Position numbers and translations under genes: made by a program. From assembly GCA_003223255.1 (NCBI GenBank), contig QHYJ01000102.1, forward strand, positions 1-33,194: a DNA stretch of 33,194 bases. The letters run 5' to 3'. The stretch comes from Acidobacteriota bacterium (GTDB lineage: Bacteria; Acidobacteriota; Terriglobia; Acidiferrales; UBA7541). Positions 11,673 through 24,661 of this stretch are shown piece by piece. A model generated the notes under the pieces. The model worked only from the letters and a program-made list of their open reading frames with translations, ran no database searches and was not told the DNA's origin. Every line of letters starts with the position of its first letter. Within the stretch, counting starts at the first letter, position 1.

Positions 11673-12124
11673 CGACAAATAGAAAAGAAAAAGAGCTGAA
11701 AGTTCGCCGCGCGAAGAGTGAGGATGCACCGCGGCTTGCGGAACTCGCCACGCAACTCGGCTATCCGTCAACCGCCGCGCAGCTCCGCCAAAGGCTGCGG
11801 GCGCTCCTCCCCGCAGCGCAGAATGCAGTGTTCGTAGCGGAAGCGAAGGATGCCGGAGTCGTCGGCTGGCTGCACGTGAGCAAGCAGGCGCTGCTGGAGA
11901 GCGAAGTCCGCGCGGAGGTCAACGGTTTGGTCGTCGCGGACGGGCACCGCAGCTTGGGCGCGGGCGCGCAGTTGCTCGCAGCCGCTGAAGACTGGGCCCG
12001 CAAACACGGATGCAAGGGCATGTCGGTGCGTTCGAACGTGATTCGCGAGGGCGCGCACAAGTTTTACGAGCGCAACGGCTACGAGCACTACAAAACGCAG
12101 AAGTCCTTCCGCAAGCCGCTGTAG
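11669..12124 (+). CDS. GNAT-family N-acetyltransferase
   Basis: A 151-residue single-domain GNAT enzyme, which transfers an acetyl group from acetyl-CoA to an amine. The N-terminus LKVRRAKSEDAPRLAELATQLGYP is typical. The acetyl-CoA-binding motif A is seen as VNGLVVADGHRSLGAGAQLLAAAEDWARKHG, and the C-terminal REGAHKFYERNGYEHYKTQKSF closes the fold. The ATG overlaps the stop of the AlkD-like gene (ATGA), a classic coupling arrangement, so it is chosen over longer upstream readings. The acceptor substrate is unknown; proximity to repair genes does not define it. Confidence 0.9.
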   Translation: MTTNRKEKELKVRRAKSEDAPRLAELATQLGYPSTAAQLRQRLRALLPAAQNAVFVAEAKDAGVVGWLHVSKQALLESEVRAEVNGLVVADGHRSLGAGAQLLAAAEDWARKHGCKGMSVRSNVIREGAHKFYERNGYEHYKTQKSFRKPL

Positions 12125-12196
12125 TCTGCGGCACCAGCCCCAGTTCCTCGACATGATTCCTTTTTTGGGACCACAGCGCAGGTTTTCAGGAATATT

Positions 12197-12215
12197 TATA
12201 TCGTACTACGATATA
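12197..12215. promoter_or_regulatory. Perfect 19-bp palindrome: probable MarR operator over the promoter
   Basis: TATATCGTA-C-TACGATATA is perfectly symmetric (9+1+9) and ends nine bases before the MarR-family ATG. A -10-like TATACT (12212-12217) overlaps the right arm and would place transcription start at or next to the ATG. No clear -35 box is seen. Size and symmetry fit a dimeric winged-helix regulator, so autorepression by the downstream gene is the natural reading. Confidence 0.75.
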
Positions 12216-12223
12216 CTAACACC

Positions 12224-12706
12224 ATGGCCAAGGAACTTTCCGCCGCTGAGTATCAGGCCCTGGCGGAACTGCGCTACCGCATCCGCAAATTCTTGCGGGA
12301 AGGCGATACGGTGGCCAGCCAAATGGGGCTCGAACCCCAGCAATATCTGCTCCTGTTGATGATTCGCGGAATTCCTGACGGCCAGGAGGCTACCGTCAGC
12401 AATCTGGCGGAGCGTCTAGTGCTGAAGCACCACAGCGTGGTGGAGCTGATCGACCGCCTGGAAGCTCATGGCTACGTGCGCCGGAGCCGCAGCCGTGAAG
12501 ACCGCCGCAGCGTCTTGGTGTCGTTGCTGCCGCGCGGCGAAAAATTGCTCGAGCTAGTAGCCCAGGACCGCGTCAGCGAACTGCGCACGTCGGGCGCGGC
12601 GCTCGCCAATGCCATTGCGTCGCTGTTGAAGAACGGGCCTGCGTTTCACGGGAGAAAAAGTTCTCACGTTCGTCTGAGGAAAGGATTGGAAAAAAGGCGT
12701 GCATAA
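12224..12706 (+). CDS. MarR-family transcriptional regulator
   Basis: The 160-residue protein has a winged helix-turn-helix at about 55-110: EATVSNLAERLVLKHHSVVELIDRLEAHGYVRRSRSREDRRSVLVSLLPRGEKLLEL. This includes the recognition helix and the Asp-Arg wing (SREDRRSV) typical of MarR proteins. Family members are dimers that usually repress their own operon and release DNA on binding phenolics, metals or oxidants. The ATG lacks a Shine-Dalgarno and sits just after the palindrome at 12197-12215, consistent with a leaderless mRNA. The first ClC gene starts inside its stop region (GTGCATAA), so regulator and transporter are translationally coupled. The inducing ligand is unknown. Confidence 0.93.
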   Translation: MAKELSAAEYQALAELRYRIRKFLREGDTVASQMGLEPQQYLLLLMIRGIPDGQEATVSNLAERLVLKHHSVVELIDRLEAHGYVRRSRSREDRRSVLVSLLPRGEKLLELVAQDRVSELRTSGAALANAIASLLKNGPAFHGRKSSHVRLRKGLEKRRA

Positions 12707-14618
12707 CGTGCAGCAAGGCGTTTCTTCGAACGACCGCGAAAACAGAAAAAACAAAAGCCGCCATCAGGAAGAGTTGGGAGATTTTTCCACCACGCTTCGC
12801 GTGTTGCCGATCTCCGGATTGGCAATCGGCATCGGCGTACTTTGCTCATTTGTTGCCCTGGCGCTGTTGCGTTTAATCGGGCTCTTTACCAACTTGTTTT
12901 ACTACGGTCATTGGGGTGGTGCGCTCGTTTCACCGGCGGGAAATCATCTCGGATGGTACGCCGTTCTCGTTCCTGTTGGGGGCGGGCTCATCGTCGGGCT
13001 AATGGCGCGTTACGGCTCTGAACGCATCCGCGGCCACGGCATCCCGGAAGCCATTGAAGCGATTTTGATCAACGGCAGCCGCGTGGAGCCGAAGGTCGCA
13101 TTTCTCAAGCCGCTGTCTTCCGCGATCTCCATCGGTTCGGGCGGCCCGTTTGGTGCGGAAGGGCCGATCATCATGACTGGCGGCGCGTTTGGATCGATGA
13201 TCGCGCAACTCTTTCACCTGACCAGTGCCGAGCGCAAGACCCTGCTCGTTGCGGGTGCGGCGGGTGGAATGTCTGCAACGTTTGCTTCGCCAGTCGCCGC
13301 TGTGTTGCTGGCGGTCGAGCTGCTGCTCTTCGAGTGGAAACCCCGCAGCTTGATTCCCGTTGCACTCGCGAGCGTCGTAGCCGCTGTAGTGCGCCGATAC
13401 ATTCTGGGATTCGGTCCGCTGTTCCCCGTGCCTGCTCATCCTTTGCACATCGGTCCGGTCAGCTTGCTGGGCTGCGCGCTCGTCGGTCTGCTGGCCGGGG
13501 TGCTTTCGGCGCTGCTCACCGTTTCGGTGTATGCAGCTGAGGACGCGTTTCTAAAATTACCGATGCACTGGATGTGGTGGCCATTGATCGGCGGGCTGGC
13601 GATTGGCTTGGGCGGCATGATTTTTCCCCAGGCCCTCGGCGTTGGATATGACACCATCGGCGCGCTCTTGCAGGGCAGCGTAACGACGAAAGTGGTCCTC
13701 GGAGTGCTATTAGTCAAATGGTTTATCTGGGCAGTTTCCCTCGGCTCGGGCACTTCAGGCGGAGTGCTCGCGCCACTGCTGATGATGGGCGGCGCGCTCG
13801 GTGGGCTCGAAGCGATGTTTCTGCCCAACGAGGGCGCGGGCTTCTGGCCACTTATCAGCATGGGCGCCATTCTGGGAGGCACGATGCGGTCGCCTTTTAC
13901 TAGCATCGTTTTTGCGTTTGAACTGACGCATGATGCCAACATATTTCTTCCCCTGTTGGTTGGAAGTGTGATCGCCCATGCATTCACGGTCTTGACCCTG
14001 AAACGTTCGATCCTGACCGAAAAGGTGGCGCGCCGCGGTTATCACTTGAGCCGCGAGTACGCCGTGGATCCCCTGGAAATTCTGTTCGCGCGCGACGTGA
14101 TGCGCACGAAAGTGGCGGTGTTGCCGGCGTCGAGCAGCCTGCGGGAATATCAAGCCTTGGCGAATCACCGGCAAAGCCAGCGGCTTCTGCCCGTGGTGGA
14201 TGCCGGCGGCGTTCTCGTCGGTGTGGTAACGCGCGGAGATCTTCGCAAGCGCATGGAACAGGAAGGCGAGGCGGCACTGCGGCGGCAGCTTTGCGAGTTG
14301 GTGCGTCCGGAGACGGTCGAAGCCTTCCCGGATGAGCCGCTGCGTTCGGTCGTCTATCGAATGGCGGAAAAACGGGTAACGCGAGTGCCCGTGGTGGAAC
14401 CAGACACGCGAAAATTTCTCGGCCTGGTCGCACTCGACGATTTGTTGAAGGCCCGCGCGCGCCATCTGGAAGAAGAGCGGAGACGCGAACAGGTACTGAC
14501 CTTGCGATTTTTCCTGCCAGGAGGGGGAGTGCAGGAACAGGAAGAAGCGCCGGACCATACAGAAACCCCGCACCATACAGAAACCCCGGACCGAAAAGAA
14601 ACAGCGGCGGCTCCTTGA
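12699..14618 (+). CDS. ClC-family anion channel/transporter with two CBS domains, divergent filter
   Basis: This 639-residue membrane protein starts with GTG overlapping the MarR stop. The ClC core spans about 34-450, followed by CBS1 (about 464-520), CBS2 (about 531-587) and a repetitive hydrophilic tail. Filter motifs are GHGIP (112-116), GAEGP (152-156, gating Glu154 kept) and GVLAP (355-359). Compared with E. coli ClC-ec1 (GSGIP, GREGP, GIFAP, Glu203, Tyr445), the central Ser is His113, the internal proton Glu aligns with Leu208 (VELLL), and Tyr445 aligns with Leu in KRSILTEK. These alignments are by eye. The differences suggest altered ion choice or loss of strict Cl-/H+ exchange. CBS domains usually sense adenine nucleotides. 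The next gene encodes a more canonical ClC. Confidence 0.93.
   Translation: MHNVQQGVSSNDRENRKNKSRHQEELGDFSTTLRVLPISGLAIGIGVLCSFVALALLRLIGLFTNLFYYGHWGGALVSPAGNHLGWYAVLVPVGGGLIVGLMARYGSERIRGHGIPEAIEAILINGSRVEPKVAFLKPLSSAISIGSGGPFGAEGPIIMTGGAFGSMIAQLFHLTSAERKTLLVAGAAGGMSATFASPVAAVLLAVELLLFEWKPRSLIPVALASVVAAVVRRYILGFGPLFPVPAHPLHIGPVSLLGCALVGLLAGVLSALLTVSVYAAEDAFLKLPMHWMWWPLIGGLAIGLGGMIFPQALGVGYDTIGALLQGSVTTKVVLGVLLVKWFIWAVSLGSGTSGGVLAPLLMMGGALGGLEAMFLPNEGAGFWPLISMGAILGGTMRSPFTSIVFAFELTHDANIFLPLLVGSVIAHAFTVLTLKRSILTEKVARRGYHLSREYAVDPLEILFARDVMRTKVAVLPASSSLREYQALANHRQSQRLLPVVDAGGVLVGVVTRGDLRKRMEQEGEAALRRQLCELVRPETVEAFPDEPLRSVVYRMAEKRVTRVPVVEPDTRKFLGLVALDDLLKARARHLEEERRREQVLTLRFFLPGGGVQEQEEAPDHTETPHHTETPDRKETAAAP
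14551..14604 (+). repeat. 18-bp tandem repeat encoding PxxxET units in the ClC tail
   Basis: Three consecutive 18-base units, cggaccatacagaaaccc and two variants, encode PDHTET, PHHTET and PDRKET at the C-terminus of the first ClC protein. The first two copies differ at one base; the third is diverged. In-frame copy-number change would lengthen or shorten the tail without a frameshift. Confidence 0.85.
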
Positions 14619-14671
14619 CATTCTTCGAGACTCTTCTTTCCATTACAACCAGCTAGCGGAAAAAAGAATTC

Positions 14672-16408
14672 ATGAGCACAAGTGCACAAGCAGCCAAAAG
14701 CTGGTGGGGAGCCTCGTCGCAACAGTGGACGGCCATCCTGCGGGAGCGCGAAGAGCAAGTGTTCCTGGCTCTCACGCTGGTCATCGGCGCGCTGGTGGGA
14801 GCAGCCGTCGTCGCGTTCATTTTGCTGACGGAGCGATTTGGAGCTCGGCTCTATCCTGCAGCCGGCATGGGATTGCGAAGGCTGCTGGTGCCGGTGGCAG
14901 GTTCGCTGGGAATGGGTTACCTGCTGTACCGCTATTTTCCGGATGCACGCGGCAGCGGCGTTCCTCAAACGAAAGCCGCCTTGTACGCGCGCGAAGGAAA
15001 TATTTCGCTTGGGACGGTGATTGGGAAATTCTTTTGCACTTCGGCAACGCTGGCCAGCGGCATCCCGCTCGGGCGCGAAGGCCCCGCTGTGCAGGTGGGC
15101 GCTGGGCTCGCTTCGGTGCTGGGACGGTGGCTCGGTCTTCGGCCGGAGAAAGTGAAGGCGCTGCTCCCCGTGGGAGCCACGGCGGCAATTGCGGCGGCAT
15201 TCAACACCCCGCTCGCGGCTGTCCTGTTTTCGCTGGAGGAAGTTGTCGGCGACCTCCACGCTCCGGTTCTTGGTTCGATCGTGCTGGCCTCGGCAACTTC
15301 GTGGGCCATGCTCCGCCTGCTGCTCGGAAACAACCCTCTATTTCATGTTCCGCAATACCAGTTGGTGAATCCCGCAGAATTCGGCATCTACGCCGTGCTC
15401 GGAGTGGCCGGCGGAATGGTTTCCGTGGCGTTCACGAAGCTGCTGCTCTGGATGCGTGCGCGATTCCTGAAATTTCCCAGGAAGACTCTTTGGTTCCAGC
15501 CGGTGGCCGGCGGTGTGACCGTCGGGATCATGGGCTGGTTTGTGCCGCAGTTGCTGGGCGTGGGTTACAAGCACGTCGGCGAGGCGCTGAACGGTGGGTT
15601 GGCCGTGAAGCTGATGGCCCTGCTGCTGGTGCTGAAGCTGGTCGCCGTGGCCACGTGCTACGCCTCGGGGAACGCAGGTGGCATTTTTGGGCCGAGTCTA
15701 TTTCTCGGCGCGATGCTCGGCGGGGTCGTAGGAAATGTCGCCAATCACTTTTTCCCGCACACCGTGGGTACGCCTGCGGCATATGCGCTGGTCGGCATGG
15801 GGACGGCGTTTGCGGGAATTGTGCGCGCGCCCATGACTTCGGTGCTGATGATTTTCGAGATTACGCGCGATTACGCGGTCATCGTGCCGCTGATGATTTC
15901 TAACCTGGTGAGTTTCTTTATCTCCGCCAGGCTGCAACGCAATCCGATTTATGACGAACTGGCGCATCAGGATGGGATCCACCTGCCCGCGGCGCAGACG
16001 CGGAAGCAAGAGACGCAACGTCAAGTGAATCATGCCATGCGCGAAGCTACCGAAGTCCTTCCCCCGGACGCAACCGTGCACGAAGCATTGGAGAGAGCAA
16101 GGGCGAGCGCCTTTAAGGCCTGGCCGGTCGGCGACAGCGGTGGGGTGATTGGCGTGGTGGGCCTGCAACGGTTGACGCAATTGGCCGAGGAGGGCTTAGC
16201 GAGCAAGCCGCTGCGCGAACTTGTTGGCACGAACGACTTCCCCCACGTTCATATTGACCATCCGCTGCACGTGGCGTTGGATCGCATGGGAGCGAGCCAG
16301 TTGGACCTGTTGCCGGTGGTCAGCCGGGCCAATGTGCACCAACTGAGAGGAGTAATCACGCTGCAGGACGTGATGGAACAGTACGGCGTGAAGGAAGCCA
16401 TGAAGTAA
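14672..16408 (+). CDS. ClC-family chloride channel/transporter with two CBS domains, canonical filter
   Basis: The 578-residue membrane protein has a ClC core (about 28-430) and two C-terminal CBS domains (about 450-505 and 515-572). The Cl- pathway motifs are canonical: GSGVP (94-98), GREGP (134-138, gating Glu136), GIFGP (337-341), an internal Glu pair in FSLEEVVGD (Glu189-Glu190, matching the ClC-ec1 proton Glu) and Tyr427 in RNPIYDEL. This predicts a Cl-/H+ antiporter or Cl- channel, with antiport favoured by the two glutamates. It follows the divergent ClC after 53 bases, probably as the third gene of the MarR operon. Two dissimilar ClC proteins in tandem suggest different ions or a hetero-pair; the second is speculation. 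Confidence 0.95.
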   Translation: MSTSAQAAKSWWGASSQQWTAILREREEQVFLALTLVIGALVGAAVVAFILLTERFGARLYPAAGMGLRRLLVPVAGSLGMGYLLYRYFPDARGSGVPQTKAALYAREGNISLGTVIGKFFCTSATLASGIPLGREGPAVQVGAGLASVLGRWLGLRPEKVKALLPVGATAAIAAAFNTPLAAVLFSLEEVVGDLHAPVLGSIVLASATSWAMLRLLLGNNPLFHVPQYQLVNPAEFGIYAVLGVAGGMVSVAFTKLLLWMRARFLKFPRKTLWFQPVAGGVTVGIMGWFVPQLLGVGYKHVGEALNGGLAVKLMALLLVLKLVAVATCYASGNAGGIFGPSLFLGAMLGGVVGNVANHFFPHTVGTPAAYALVGMGTAFAGIVRAPMTSVLMIFEITRDYAVIVPLMISNLVSFFISARLQRNPIYDELAHQDGIHLPAAQTRKQETQRQVNHAMREATEVLPPDATVHEALERARASAFKAWPVGDSGGVIGVVGLQRLTQLAEEGLASKPLRELVGTNDFPHVHIDHPLHVALDRMGASQLDLLPVVSRANVHQLRGVITLQDVMEQYGVKEAMK

Positions 16409-16453
16409 TGACGTAATGAAGAAACGAAAACTGTGATAGCTCGCACGCAAGCA

Positions 16454-16475
16454 CTTCCCCAGGAATCGGGGCAAG
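16454..16475. terminator. Weak hairpin between convergent ClC and CocE genes
   Basis: CTTCCCC (16454-16460) pairs with GGGG-c-AAG (16468-16475) around a 7-base loop, with one bulged C. It lies midway in the 92-base gap between converging genes, a sensible place for a terminator, but no T-tract follows on either strand. Confidence 0.3.
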
Positions 16476-16500
16476 CGCGAGGCCGGCCTTACAAAACCTG

Positions 16501-18486
16501 TCAGTGAGAGTCCGCAGATGGAGAGCCGGCGTGCGGCGGGACGACGGTGACGGTCACCTGCGAAGGGTATTGCTTCGAGTGATGGACGGCGTTGCGGGCG
16601 ACGACGCCTTTGGATTCGTCGTAATTGTTGCCACCGGTGTTCAAGTTGCGGTCGAAGCGCGGGAAATTGCTGCTGGAAACCTCGATGCGAAGCCGGTGGC
16701 CCGCTTCGAAGGAATTGCTGGTGTTTAGCGGCTGCAGCGCGACCTTGTAGACTTTTCCGGATTCCATCCAAACCAGAGGCTTGTCGTAGCCATCGCGATA
16801 CCGCATGCGCTGAATGGATTCGTCGAGATTGTGGGCCCGCCCGTCGGGATAGACATCGAGGACCTTCACGGTAAAGTCCGTGTCTTTGGCATCAGATGAA
16901 ACATAAAGTGTGGGGACAATCGGGCCGGTCACTTCCGTGCCTTCCTTGAAGGGCTCGGAGGTGTAGACAAGGATATCGGCCCGAGCTTCCATCTTGCGCT
17001 GGTCAAAGCTGCCAGCTTGCACGGCATCGCCAGTGCAGCAGACGTTGCCGCCATAGGAAGTCACAGGATTCATAGGATCGTAAGTGAAGGCGTCGGGCTT
17101 GTCGGCTTCGGGAGGGGACGTCAAGAGAACGCCGTCACCGGTCAGAGAGTTCGCGTGGCCTGCGCTGGACAAGTATATCGTCAGCGGGTGGGCGCCCGCG
17201 GGCGGCCAAGTGTCGGATGACTGCCACTTGTTGAGGCCCATGGTGTAATAGGTCACTTTCGGCAGCGCGTCCAGGCGGGGGCTCTTCTCACCCTTTAAGA
17301 AGCGGTCAAAGAAGCTGTAAATGATTTCCTGATAGTCAAGCCGGGCGTCGCCCATGCTGCGTTCGCCGACGATGGTCTCTTCGGTAGCGCGCGTGTAAGC
17401 GCAGTGGGTGACGGGCGCGATGATGGCCCATTGCACATTGGCAATTTCGCCTTTAGCGGTTTTGCGGACGTGATTGTAAAGAGCGAGATTCGGGCCAATC
17501 GAGACGTCGTACCAGGACATGAACCAGAGGCCGGGCACGTTGAGCGGCATGTCGTCGTGGTAGAGACCACCCTTGTACCAGTCGGGATCGTTCGGCGTGC
17601 GCTGAATCATGCGGCCGCCGGTGGGGACGGGCATGGCGTCGGCGAAAATTCCGGGAGGTCCGTCAACCGCTTTCAAAATGTCTTGCTCGGGCAGATGCCA
17701 CAGCGCCTTCGACCATTCGACCGGGGGAAGTTGTTGCGCGAGGTCGAAGGACTTTGACTCGCGGATGAGATCGGCTTGCGAGGTATTGGGCGGAAACATG
17801 GGCCGCACCTGGTTCTGCTCGCCATTGAGCCACGCAATAAAGAGCATCTGGACGGCGCCGCCGCGATACCAGTTGCCTTGCTCGTAATAAGGAGCGACGC
17901 GTCCCACCCCGGCGCCGAAGCCTTGAACGTTCATCGCGGCATACGCAGGATTGCCCATCGCAGCGATGCCCATCTGGTATTCGGCTGTGGAAGAGCAACC
18001 CGTGGTGCCAACTTTTCCGTTGGACCAGGGTTGCGAGGAAATCCAGGAGAGCGCGTCATCGCCGTCGGTGCGCGGAGCACCCAGGATGTCGTAATTGCCT
18101 TCGGAGAAAAAATGACCGCGCTCGTTCTGGAGGATATAGGCATAGCCGCGCTTGATGGCGGTGAGAATGTTGGTCATGTCTGCCGGTACGCCATTGCGCA
18201 CATCCCAGAAATTGAAGTTGTAGGGAGTGCGGACCCAGATGGTGGGGACCTTGCCGGCGGCGTTTTTGGGGCGGTAAATGTCCGTGGCCAAGCGAACGCC
18301 GTCGCGCATCAGCATCCTCACTTTGCGATCGATGATGGCGACCGATTCGAGCTCCTTTTCGGTTTGGATGCGCTGCTCTTTCTGTGCGGGCGTAAGCGGG
18401 GTTGGTTGTTGAGCTCGCGCGACCGCTAGAGCGATAGTACAGACGACCACAGAAGCAACGAATACTCTGACGCTGGATTTTGGCAT
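16501..18486 (-). CDS. Exported CocE/NonD-family hydrolase (X-Pro dipeptidyl-peptidase S15-like)
   Basis: The 661-residue protein has a signal peptide ([19 protein letters not shown], about 8-26). An alpha/beta-hydrolase of the CocE/S15 type follows ([24 protein letters not shown]), and a C-terminal jelly-roll domain ends in [26 protein letters not shown]. The likely triad is Ser165 ([12 protein letters not shown]), Asp327 ([12 protein letters not shown]) and His361 (PVTHCAY). Family members hydrolyse cocaine-type esters, acylated beta-lactams (glutaryl-7-ACA) or X-Pro peptides; the bacterial exported forms are mostly of unknown substrate. GAGGGAG seven bases before the ATG supports the start. 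A probable promoter lies at 18519-18547, and it appears to be a single-gene unit. Confidence 0.92.
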
Positions 18487-22589: not shown

Positions 22590-23524
22590 CAGAGGCGACA
22601 ACCGTGGCAATACTGATCGGGCTGGACGACGGCAGCATTATGCGCGCGGGGCGTGGCGTGCCGTCGTTTCTTCCGACATTTTGTCCAAATTGCTGCTGAA
22701 GGCGAGGCCCTACGAGACCCCTCCAGGCTCCGCGGACCAACTCTATGAAGACCGAACGCTTGAAATTACATACAGCTCCGATAAGGAGCAAATGGAAGCG
22801 CTTCAAGAATGCCTGGTGAAAATCCGCGACCGCTTCCGCGTCCTGGAAATTCATTTAGATCCTCATCGCTCCAATGATCGGCGTCGTTGGAGAAATCTTT
22901 TGCCGCCTGAATACATTCAGCAACAACGATCTGGTGCGGCGGCTCGAAGAATTTGGCGCTGAAGTTTGGCTCAATGACATTGCCGAATGGATCTGGTATG
23001 TCAATGACGACCAGTTGCAGAGGATGCAGCTTCAAGGAACAAGCTTCTCTCTTGGCGCATTCGACGCTCGTTTGCGGAATCATTTTGAACATAAGGACGA
23101 ACATGCGCTGCTTTCGGTGTTCCAGCAAGACTTTCGTGGTTATGAAGAGCCTGACATCCGCGAGACGTTGACATTGGCAGAACGCTACCTGCCGCCACTA
23201 GGCGCGAACGGCGAGATGGTCGTCAATATCGGAAAGGCCGTTTATTTGGCCAACCAGGGTGCCGACGGCGTGATCGACATCAGCCCTTTTACTTGTATGA
23301 ACGGAATCGTTTGCGAAGCCATTTATCCGCGCGTCAGCGCGGACCACGGCGGCATTCCCATTCGCAACCATTATTTCGACGGCACCCGGTCGGATCTGGA
23401 ACGCGACATCGGCATTTTTCTCGAACTAGCGCTCCTACAAACGCAACAAAGCGGTGCCGCGCACCCTTCCGAGTTTCCAGTCCGACGCTCGCCTCCGACG
23501 CTCTGCTGCGGCACAATCTTCTGG
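22590..23524 (+). pseudogene. Remnant of a 2-hydroxyacyl-CoA-dehydratase-activase-related protein (COG3581-like C-terminal part)
   Basis: The stretch encodes the C-terminal part of the large activase-related family: ARGAWRAVVSSDILSKLLLKARPYETPPG, then VVGEIFCRLNTFSNNDLVRRLEEFGAEVWL, DGVIDISPFTCMNGIVCEAIYPRVS and GGIPIRNHYFDGTRSDLERDIGIFLELA. Intact relatives are roughly a thousand residues or more with an N-terminal ATPase domain; no such part is found upstream, so over half is missing. A frame change is needed near 22868: cat-cgctcc-aatgatc would read HRPMIGVVGE with one base fewer. The family end (FLELA) is not followed by a stop; the frame continues about 30 residues straight into queG. 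Family recognition is by memory of conserved motifs; truncation plus frameshift support decay. Confidence 0.72.
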
Positions 23525-24661
23525 ATGAGCCAATCGGCAGACGCAATTTGGATTGTGGAGCAGGCCAAGGGCCTGGGTTTCGACCTGTGCGGCGTAGCGC
23601 GAGCGGATAAGTTCCCTGAACTGGAAAACACTCCGGATTGGCTCGCGCGCGGTTACGCTGGCGAAATGAAGTATCTCTTTGATCCTCGCCGCGAAGATCC
23701 ACGTAGGGCTATGCCAGGGGTTCAAAGCGCCATCGTTTGCCTGCTCAACTATAACAGTGAGCATCCGTTCTCTACGGACGCCAAGTTTGCCCGCCGGAAT
23801 GGCGAAGCAAGGGGATGGGTTTCTCGCTATGCGTGGGGAGACGATTATCATAGTGTTCTTGGGGAGAGACTGGAAGCGCTGAACGCGCTGCTTCGCGAAC
23901 GGTTTTCCGAGCCCTTCGAAGCTCGCGTGTATGTAGACACAGGACCCGTTCAAGAGCGCGTGCTTGCCAAGTACGCGGGACTGGGTTGGCTCGGCAAAAA
24001 CACGCTGCTGCTCAATCAAACGCTCGGCTCCTACTTTTTTCTTGGCGTCATACTAACGACGTTGGATCTGGAACCGACGCTCGGTGAAAAGGAGCTGCCG
24101 CCGCCGGATTTGTGCGGGAGTTGCCGGCAATGTCTTGATGCCTGTCCCACGCAAGCTTTTGTCGAGCCTTATGTCTTGGACGCCCGAAAATGCATTTCGT
24201 ACTTGACGATTGAACTGCGCGGCAGCGTTCCTGAGGAACTTCGAGAGCCCATGGGGAATCACGTTTTTGGCTGCGACATCTGTCAGGATGTTTGTCCTTG
24301 GAACCGCCGCGCCGCTCTCTCCCCGCTGATGCAATTTCAACCGAGAAGTTTGCCATCGCGACAGGAGAATGCAACAGAGGCATCTCCAGACAGTCAGGAT
24401 GATTCGCTGTTGCTCCCCAGGCTGGAGCGGCTCTTGGCTCTCGACGGGGAGAACTTTCGTGATTTCTTTCGCCGAAGCCCTATCAAACGCGCCAAATGGC
24501 GGGGCCTCGTCCGCAACGCCTGCATTGCGGCGGGAAATTCTGGTATGGGGCCCGGCAGCGCGGGCTACGCTCGCATCCTCGATTGCCTAAACCGATTGGC
24601 TGCCTGCGGCGATTCCATCGTTGCCGAATCTGCCCAATGGGCGCTCTCGCGCATCCAATAA
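23525..24661 (+). CDS. queG: Epoxyqueuosine reductase
   Basis: The 378-residue iron-sulfur, cobalamin-dependent enzyme performs the last step of queuosine synthesis, reducing epoxyqueuosine to queuosine in tRNA wobble position 34. Visible are AKGLGFDLCGVARAD at the start, YVDTGPVQERVLAKYAGLGWLGKNTLLLN (with the conserved catalytic Asp and cobalamin region) and two [4Fe-4S] motifs: CGSCRQCLDACPTQAF and GCDICQDVCPWNRR. A HEAT-like C-terminus follows. The ATG at 23525 matches the family N-terminus but has no Shine-Dalgarno. The upstream pseudogene remnant is open in the same frame, so expression may depend on upstream translation, or a longer fused product may be made. No other queuosine gene is in the window. 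Confidence 0.95.
   Translation: MSQSADAIWIVEQAKGLGFDLCGVARADKFPELENTPDWLARGYAGEMKYLFDPRREDPRRAMPGVQSAIVCLLNYNSEHPFSTDAKFARRNGEARGWVSRYAWGDDYHSVLGERLEALNALLRERFSEPFEARVYVDTGPVQERVLAKYAGLGWLGKNTLLLNQTLGSYFFLGVILTTLDLEPTLGEKELPPPDLCGSCRQCLDACPTQAFVEPYVLDARKCISYLTIELRGSVPEELREPMGNHVFGCDICQDVCPWNRRAALSPLMQFQPRSLPSRQENATEASPDSQDDSLLLPRLERLLALDGENFRDFFRRSPIKRAKWRGLVRNACIAAGNSGMGPGSAGYARILDCLNRLAACGDSIVAESAQWALSRIQ

Follow-up and report, generated by a model that had tools for sequence, protein, structure and literature searches.

A MarR-type regulator, a candidate palindromic operator and a ClC subfamily with substituted anion-site residues

We analysed a 33,194-nucleotide stretch of DNA from an Acidobacteriota bacterium (assembly GCA_003223255.1, contig QHYJ01000102.1), called the window below, which carries a gene for a MarR-family regulator followed by two genes for ClC-type anion transporters. 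All three genes lie head to tail on the + strand. The first gene of the presumed operon encodes the 160-aa MarR protein (12224–12706). It is followed by a 639-aa ClC protein with two CBS stretches and a GTG start (12699–14618), here called ClC-A, and by a 578-aa ClC protein with one CBS stretch and an ATG start (14672–16408), here called ClC-B. The end of the MarR gene and the beginning of ClC-A share 8 bases, and the gap between ClC-A and ClC-B is 53 bp. A perfect palindrome, TATCGTACTACGATA, with the arms TATCGTA and TACGATA around a single C, was found at 12199–12213, 10 bases before the MarR start codon, and is considered a candidate MarR operator. A scan of the + strand from 12050 to 16600 gave no terminator-like site, so the three genes are likely to form one transcript. 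Within the same interval no match to a sigma-70-type promoter was found, and promoters of the host group may differ. A reading made earlier from the sequence alone (the sequence-only reading) had described two unlike ClC transporters in tandem with one MarR regulator; its coordinates proved exact, with the MarR gene just outside the span that it gave.

Two unlike ClC proteins at one locus

Both proteins match the Pfam family Voltage_CLC far above its cut-off of 24.8 bits, ClC-A with 261.8 bits (E 1.2e-77) and ClC-B with 320.8 bits (E 1.4e-95). Residue equivalents were taken from an alignment with full-length E. coli ClcA and are given in ClC-ec1 numbering. ClC-B carries the motifs GSGVP, GREGP, E-E, GIFGP and Y427 (in its own numbering), which correspond to S107, R147, E148, E202, E203, F357 and Y445. 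In ClC-A the same positions read H107, A147, E148, E202, L203, L357 and L445. In its own numbering these lie in G112-H113-G-I-P, G152-A153-E154-G-P, E207-L208, G355-V-L357-A-P and S437-I-L439-T, where L208 occupies the position of the proton glutamate (Gluin) and L439 that of Tyr445. Of the canonical ClcA-type set S107/E148/E203/Y445, ClC-A thus keeps E148 only and ClC-B keeps all four. The alignment bears out the residues that the sequence-only reading had assigned to both proteins, and it did not restore equivalents of Glu203 or Tyr445 in ClC-A.

The predicted structure of ClC-A (mean predicted local distance difference test score 84.1, predicted template modelling score 0.77) matches chain 1ots_B of ClC-ec1 with a Z score of 46.4 and a root mean square deviation of 2.9 over 417 aligned residues at 24% identity. 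According to this model, the residue changes sit within an ordinary ClC fold. By sequence, ClC-A matches an S. typhimurium ClC (E 1.8e-27), E. coli ClcA (about 1e-21) and, at best, a CLC-F chain with 1.5e-5. The best-scoring NCBIfam model for ClC-A is NF002505 'ClcB-like' (cut-off 482 bits), and both ClC-A (244.5) and ClC-B (281.4) score below its cut-off. The two proteins fall in separate parts of the ClC tree. Laboratory counterparts of the ClC-A changes exist, as the PDB entries listed include the ClC-ec1 mutants Y445L and E203V, and R147A within a triple mutant.

To follow ClC-A across genomes, two collections were used. A search of 297 genomes of the phylum yielded the window ClC-A and 49 listed matches with at least 43% identity over most of the length, some of which end before the CBS part; after these, identity drops to 37% and below. 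Flanks were taken for 60 listed phylum matches, and 46 of them (46 of the 49) contained a ClC-A gene by a bit-score rule. From a species-genome collection, the best 80 of at least 563 related stretches were kept. The resulting 126 loci, or 127 proteins with the window, fall into 120 clusters at 95% identity, so redundancy is small. By taxonomic label they span seven or more phyla.

The signature of this subfamily (GHGIPEA, GPFGAEGP, E202-L203, Leu or Met at position 445) fits the window ClC-A. His107 was found in 126 of the 127 proteins (one gap) and Ala147 also in 126, Gluin is replaced by Leu in 124, and Leu357 occurs in 121. The gate glutamate E148, E202 and K131 are each present in all 127. 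A motif count over the 126 loci gave Leu (104), Met (21) or Val (1) at position 445, and Tyr in none. Because the same letters hold across the subfamily, the residue changes of ClC-A are, as judged from conservation, not due to chance. In the ClC tree, 17 ClC-A rows form one group with a support of 100/100. It adjoins five rows of a GHGVPEVM type, with two more nearby, at a fork supported by only 80/71. The seven sampled GHGVPEVM-type proteins have His107 and no Gluin, and they keep GREGP, Arg147, Phe357 and Tyr445. On this comparison, His107 and the loss of Gluin are common to a wider ClcB-like group, and Ala147, Leu/Met445 and mostly Leu357 mark ClC-A.

The MarR partner and its palindrome

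The window MarR belongs to the MarR winged-helix family (MarR_2, 54 bits against a cut-off of 27, E 1.9e-14; family alignment). It stays below the cut-off of all 12 listed NCBIfam MarR-type models, the best being HpaR with 36.7 against 121.2 bits. A profile built from the MarR proteins beside ClC-A was scored within 300 bp of ClC-A at the 126 loci. A close match (E <1e-20) was found at 68 of them, belonging to 65 of the 120 clusters, and a looser MarR-type match at 15 further loci (83 in total); some of the looser matches overlap the longest ClC reading frame, which leaves starts uncertain. The rest of the same loci, 1.59 Mb, contained 10 MarR matches, eight of them within about 2 kb of a ClC gene. 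At 14 loci of other ClC types, no MarR match below 1e-10 was observed.

Within the species collection a strict MarR–ClC-A pair was present at 44 of the 80 loci, in seven phyla by label: Acidobacteriota (17/32), Pseudomonadota (13/18), Actinomycetota (6/14), Verrucomicrobiota (3/4), Chloroflexota (2/6), delta/myxobacteria (1/2), Planctomycetota (1/3) and unclassified (1/1). Labels may be mistaken for many of these loci, which come from metagenome bins. Among the named strains that have the pair are Dictyobacter vulcani, Rhizobium leguminosarum, Nitrospirillum amazonense, Caballeronia udeis and Leekyejoonella antrihumi. MarR lies upstream on the same strand in 25 of the 44 pairs, divergently in 17 and downstream in 2.

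The association was also approached from the side of the regulator. A MarR-family profile search of the 297 phylum genomes, with up to 13 candidates scored per genome, gave at least 39 matches at 90 bits or more, followed by a drop to 73 bits; neighbours were assigned by position and compared by hand. Among the matches listed, 24 adjoin ClC-A, 2 head a run of MarR, a ClC of another type with the motif HSTEEV, and ClC-A, and 5 adjoin an HSTEEV-type ClC alone. A divergent ClC of ClC-A or HSTEEV type therefore accompanies 31 of the 39, which is the best evidence for a functional link. Three of the 39 matches contain an in-frame stop. At three Rhizobiales loci (L160, L167, L172), two tandem family MarR genes are divergent from ClC-A.

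MarR-family repressors often lie beside their target with a palindromic site. Upstream regions were scanned for ATCGTA-N-TACGAT with at most 2 mismatches of 12. The window region gave one match where 0.08 were expected. The palindrome, TATCGTANTACGATA in its perfect form at 12199–12213, recurs upstream of ClC-A-linked MarR genes and was found in 45 of 69 MarR upstream regions, compared to 0.1 in letter shuffles. Spacers of 0, 2 and 3 instead of 1 gave 2, 1 and 0 regions. It was seen in both the same-strand and the divergent layout of MarR and ClC-A. A match also precedes 9 of 55 ClC-A genes without an adjacent MarR, against 11 of 702 control open reading frames (ORFs); as controls, one long ORF in three was taken from the same loci, whether or not it is a true gene.

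In the host genome (6.66 Mb), 5 exact palindromes were found, compared to none for the reversed control. The phylum sample contained 33 exact sites in 20 of the 297 genomes (reversed control 1), assigned by their positions: 11 at MarR–ClC-A pairs, 2 at pairs of MarR and HSTEEV-type ClC, 3 at orphan family MarR genes and 17 elsewhere. The palindrome is thus enriched at MarR–ClC pairs, as far as these counts go, and not exclusive to them, and the sites away from ClC genes mean that other users of it may exist. Besides that of the window, the host genome holds seven palindromes with one mismatch or fewer. They lie near a NAD-binding 6-phosphogluconate/3-hydroxyisobutyrate dehydrogenase-type gene, MacB/FtsX permeases (two sites), an OmpA-type gene and two uncharacterised genes, and one is inside an ORF. 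These neighbours share no common theme, and the sites were rejected as a clue to the ligand. The two sites of the locus L184, at 4863 and 4907, resemble the operator, lie 44 bp from each other and precede MacB/FtsX-type permease genes; this pair may belong to another regulator.

Tandems, neighbours and genome context

The sequence-only reading had proposed an operon with two complementary anion routes. Apart from the window, 8 of the 126 loci carry a second ClC gene at most 3 kb from ClC-A. A ClC-B type is present at three of them (L093, L097, L125), and the full order MarR–ClC-A–ClC-B occurs in L093 (53-bp gap) and L097 (12 bp), both close kin of the window. In L125 the ClC-B type lies about 1 kb downstream, with the operator present and no adjacent MarR found. 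The wide recurrence of MarR with ClC-A stands, and the recurrence of the trio fails beyond close relatives. Because the trio is confined to these, the two routes are a local feature, and by gene content MarR with ClC-A is the general unit and the two-ClC tandem a local arrangement.

The other second ClC proteins are of two types. A GPEDP type, which has GSGVN besides GPEDP and a Phe in place of Tyr445, occurs in three genomes of the same class (L056, 4466–6175; L057, 4250–5968; L077, 3398–5149). The HSTEEV type lies near ClC-A in L074 and L076, which are near-copies, and in L077, where no MarR was found, and it stands beside a family MarR in L190, L203, L213, L214 and L215. Where alone it measures about 450–460 aa; two proteins scanned gave Voltage_CLC scores of 245 and 253 bits and no CBS. 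Its motifs are HSTEEV or HSTEEI, SAALEGP or STALEGP, and EMPY. The HSTEEV branch is 3.16 long in the ClC tree, and kinship to ClC-A cannot be read from so long a branch. In a MarR tree of only 147 columns, the partners of the HSTEEV type need 3 changes, compared to 5.9 when shuffled.

When the 1033 neighbouring ORFs of the 126 ClC-A loci were clustered, only MarR was frequent (39 loci in the main cluster, where the longest-ORF rule hides some). A cluster from 16 loci resembles the reverse strand of MarR by letters and place, and all others, adenylosuccinate lyase among them, comprise at most 10 loci each. Only MarR being recurrent, the metabolic neighbourhood was rejected as a clue to the anion. 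An adenylosuccinate-lyase-like gene lies divergent to ClC-A at ten loci (L039, L044, L045, L047, L049, L068, L069, L113, L120, L123; one member scanned with Pfam), and orphan family MarR genes adjoin such a gene in L201, L202, L210 and L212. This gene may share a control region with them or reflect old synteny.

In the host genome (428 contigs, 97.3% complete), ClC-A and ClC-B are the only Voltage_CLC matches found. No second close MarR turned up, the next match having 30% identity (E 2e-7). On one side of the locus lie genes for MutM, D-Tyr-tRNA deacylase, a DNA-alkylation-repair protein and a GNAT acetyltransferase, followed by MarR; after ClC-B comes an S15-type peptidase gene on the − strand. 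A tRNA scan of the whole window found none. At 22874–24661 of the window, a 595-aa frame has no Pfam match in its first part, its QueG and 4Fe-4S domains being confined to residues 273 onwards, and is possibly a gene fusion or an assembly join.

Interpretation and comparison with known systems

From the gene order, the subfamily, the residues, the recurrent MarR partner and the palindrome, all visible in the sequence, we infer repression, a ligand, a transport mode and an anion in the following way. The MarR-type repressor would bind the palindrome at 12199–12213 just upstream of its own start codon and would shut off itself, ClC-A and probably ClC-B. A small-molecule ligand would release it and switch the operon on. 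ClC-A, a CBS-containing ClC and presumably a homodimer, would have a gate glutamate (Glu148) that still swings in the anion path. Its central anion site would be rebuilt, with His for Ser107, Leu or Met for Tyr445, no Gluin and a different inner gate. It would carry anions through the inner membrane, either with proton coupling that is loose or altered or with a different preference among anions. For ClC-B, ordinary 2 Cl−/1 H+ exchange is expected. Control by MarR, already part of the sequence-only reading, is likely given the recurrence of MarR beside ClC-A and the conserved palindrome. We have high confidence in the link between MarR, palindrome and ClC-A taken alone. The whole chain, an autoregulated MarR-repressed operon with a ClC-A of remodelled central site and loosened or altered coupling or anion preference, seems to us slightly better than an even bet.

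In ClC-ec1, S107 and Y445 form the inner gate and contact the central anion, and mutations there uncouple transport (PMC12248016). The mutants E203A and E203Q degrade coupling (PMC7253180), and E202 organises proton access (PMC3519907). Because of this literature on S107/Y445, E203 and E202, weakened coupling or altered anion choice would be expected by analogy, rather than plain loss of function, and proton coupling in ClC-A is probably weakened. Among the ClC-behaviour papers listed in the open-literature search, there was no mention of Y445L.

Several observations weigh against this reading. No adjacent MarR was detected at 43 of the 126 ClC-A loci (4 of them with less than 600 bp of upstream sequence), and named strains without the pair include Ktedonospora formicarum, Trinickia symbiotica, Dyella flagellata and Kitasatospora mediocidica. 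The profiles were derived from MarR proteins adjacent to ClC-A, which favours such pairs, so the association count describes a dedicated MarR subfamily and not MarR proteins at large. Eight of the 39 listed family MarR genes are not beside a ClC gene, four of them adjoining the adenylosuccinate-lyase-like gene. No palindrome at threshold was seen in 24 of the 69 MarR upstream regions, and exact sites lie away from ClC genes in 4 of 5 cases in the host genome and in 20 of 33 in the phylum sample (3 of the 20 at orphan family MarR genes). The remaining points concern coupling. Proton pumping is possible without a titratable Gluin (PMC7253180), so a missing Gluin alone is no sign of a channel. 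A Tyr hydroxyl can be dispensed with (PMC3519907), and coupling is not lost through weak binding at the central site alone, as in K131 mutants (PMC12248016). By analogy with these cases, the coupling of ClC-A could be intact.

ClC-A might instead belong to a ClcB-like branch and exchange Cl− with proton coupling in the ordinary way, the substitutions being lineage drift that leaves mechanism and substrate as they were, and MarR setting the level only. Consistent with this, Gluin is also missing in the seven GHGVPEVM-type relatives and in E. coli ClcB, which likewise has His107; K131, E148 and E202 are kept in every ClC-A protein, and the published proton pumping without a titratable Gluin points the same way. 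However, ClC-A adds R147A, Y445L/M and mostly F357L, kept across phyla, whereas the seven relatives retain GREGP and Tyr445. An older report also states that non-protonatable Gluin mutants abolish H+ movement (PMC3519907), and E203A and E203Q degrade coupling, as mentioned above. We regard this explanation as possible, if on the doubtful side.

Alternatively, ClC-A might be a true glutamate-gated anion channel without proton transport, which MarR would control as the passive counterpart of an active exchanger. In favour of this, the gate glutamate is kept, Gluin is lost and the two side-chain ligands of the central site are replaced; weak binding at that site has been proposed to be typical of channels (discussed in PMC12248016). 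On the other hand, the K131 mutants show that such weak binding alone does not uncouple, and ClC channels and transporters do not seem to be distinguishable by sequence (PMC6019066). A channel is an unlikely explanation. It is very improbable that the neighbourhood is merely inherited synteny or the shared transfer of a neutral block, with the palindrome belonging to other regulators: the block does lie beside the adenylosuccinate-lyase-like gene in 10 loci (one scanned), making part of the adjacency local synteny, and palindromes occur elsewhere too, but the pair persists while order and orientation vary, the palindrome is present in both layouts, members of this MarR family are found next to a second ClC branch as well, and other neighbours recur far less.

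The preferred reading, a MarR-repressed operon around a remodelled ClC-A, has no counterpart that we found: no report of a MarR–ClC pairing appeared in the openly accessible literature, with most subscription journals outside the search. For acid stress in Rhizobium tropici, a MarR mutant whose growth in acid is impaired is described, as are four ClC genes, one of which, sycA, is cited for acid tolerance; the MarR and ClC locus tags are far apart, and the excerpts draw no link (PMC5936775). In the excerpts of PMC11186258, MarR and ClC are named in general terms only, and those of PMC6119699 mention an EriC gene with no MarR–ClC link.

The interest lies in the general unit of MarR, operator and ClC-A. 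Views of the ClC mechanism derive for the most part from a small number of canonical exchangers. ClC-A amounts to an experiment of nature across phyla: Gluin and the two side-chain ligands of the central site are replaced together and the gate is kept, so that ClC-A can serve to test why one ClC works as an exchanger, another as a channel and another with selectivity for a different anion. MarR and the palindrome offer a handle on when bacteria use ClC-A, and knowing the MarR ligand would give a lead to the anion or stress. Tentatively, and with less confidence than the chain above, one may imagine a widespread soil-bacterial signalling unit, in which one MarR subfamily with its own palindrome is the dedicated switch of two separate ClC branches with remodelled filters, ClC-A and the CBS-less HSTEEV type, that release or take up a specific organic or inorganic anion which is, or is tied to, the MarR ligand. 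If so, bacteria would have an inducible response to anion stress that is based on ClC proteins.

Among known regulators, the MarR-family repressors OhrR, HpaR and CouR share the MarR domain with the window MarR, which differs from them in adjoining a ClC gene and in falling below the NCBIfam cut-offs. CLC-F proteins, like ClC-A, depart from the canonical ClC filter. The CLC-F fluoride/proton antiporter has the ClC fold in common with ClC-A (6d0j_B, Z 42.0), but ClC-A differs by its 18% identity, its CBS stretches and GHGIP and is closer to ClcA by sequence. No fluoride riboswitch was found, as no Rfam family reached its gathering score in 11900–16600; many fluoride exporters lack a riboswitch, so this absence weighs little. 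The eukaryotic Cl−/H+ exchanger CmCLC likewise has a non-titratable residue at the Gluin position, Thr (PMC7253180), and shows 21% identity to ClC-A (3org_A). E. coli ClcB and the GHGVPEVM-type proteins share His107 and the missing Gluin with ClC-A; unlike it, they keep Arg147, Phe357 and Tyr445, and the seven GHG-type loci have no such MarR. ClcB forms a long row in the tree, and its placement is unsure. Finally, compared to ClC-ec1, the 2 Cl−/1 H+ exchanger ClcA of E. coli, ClC-B keeps the canonical residues. ClC-A shares with it the fold, the gate glutamate, E202 and K131, and differs by His107, Ala147, Leu203, Leu357, Leu445, its two CBS stretches and its MarR partner.

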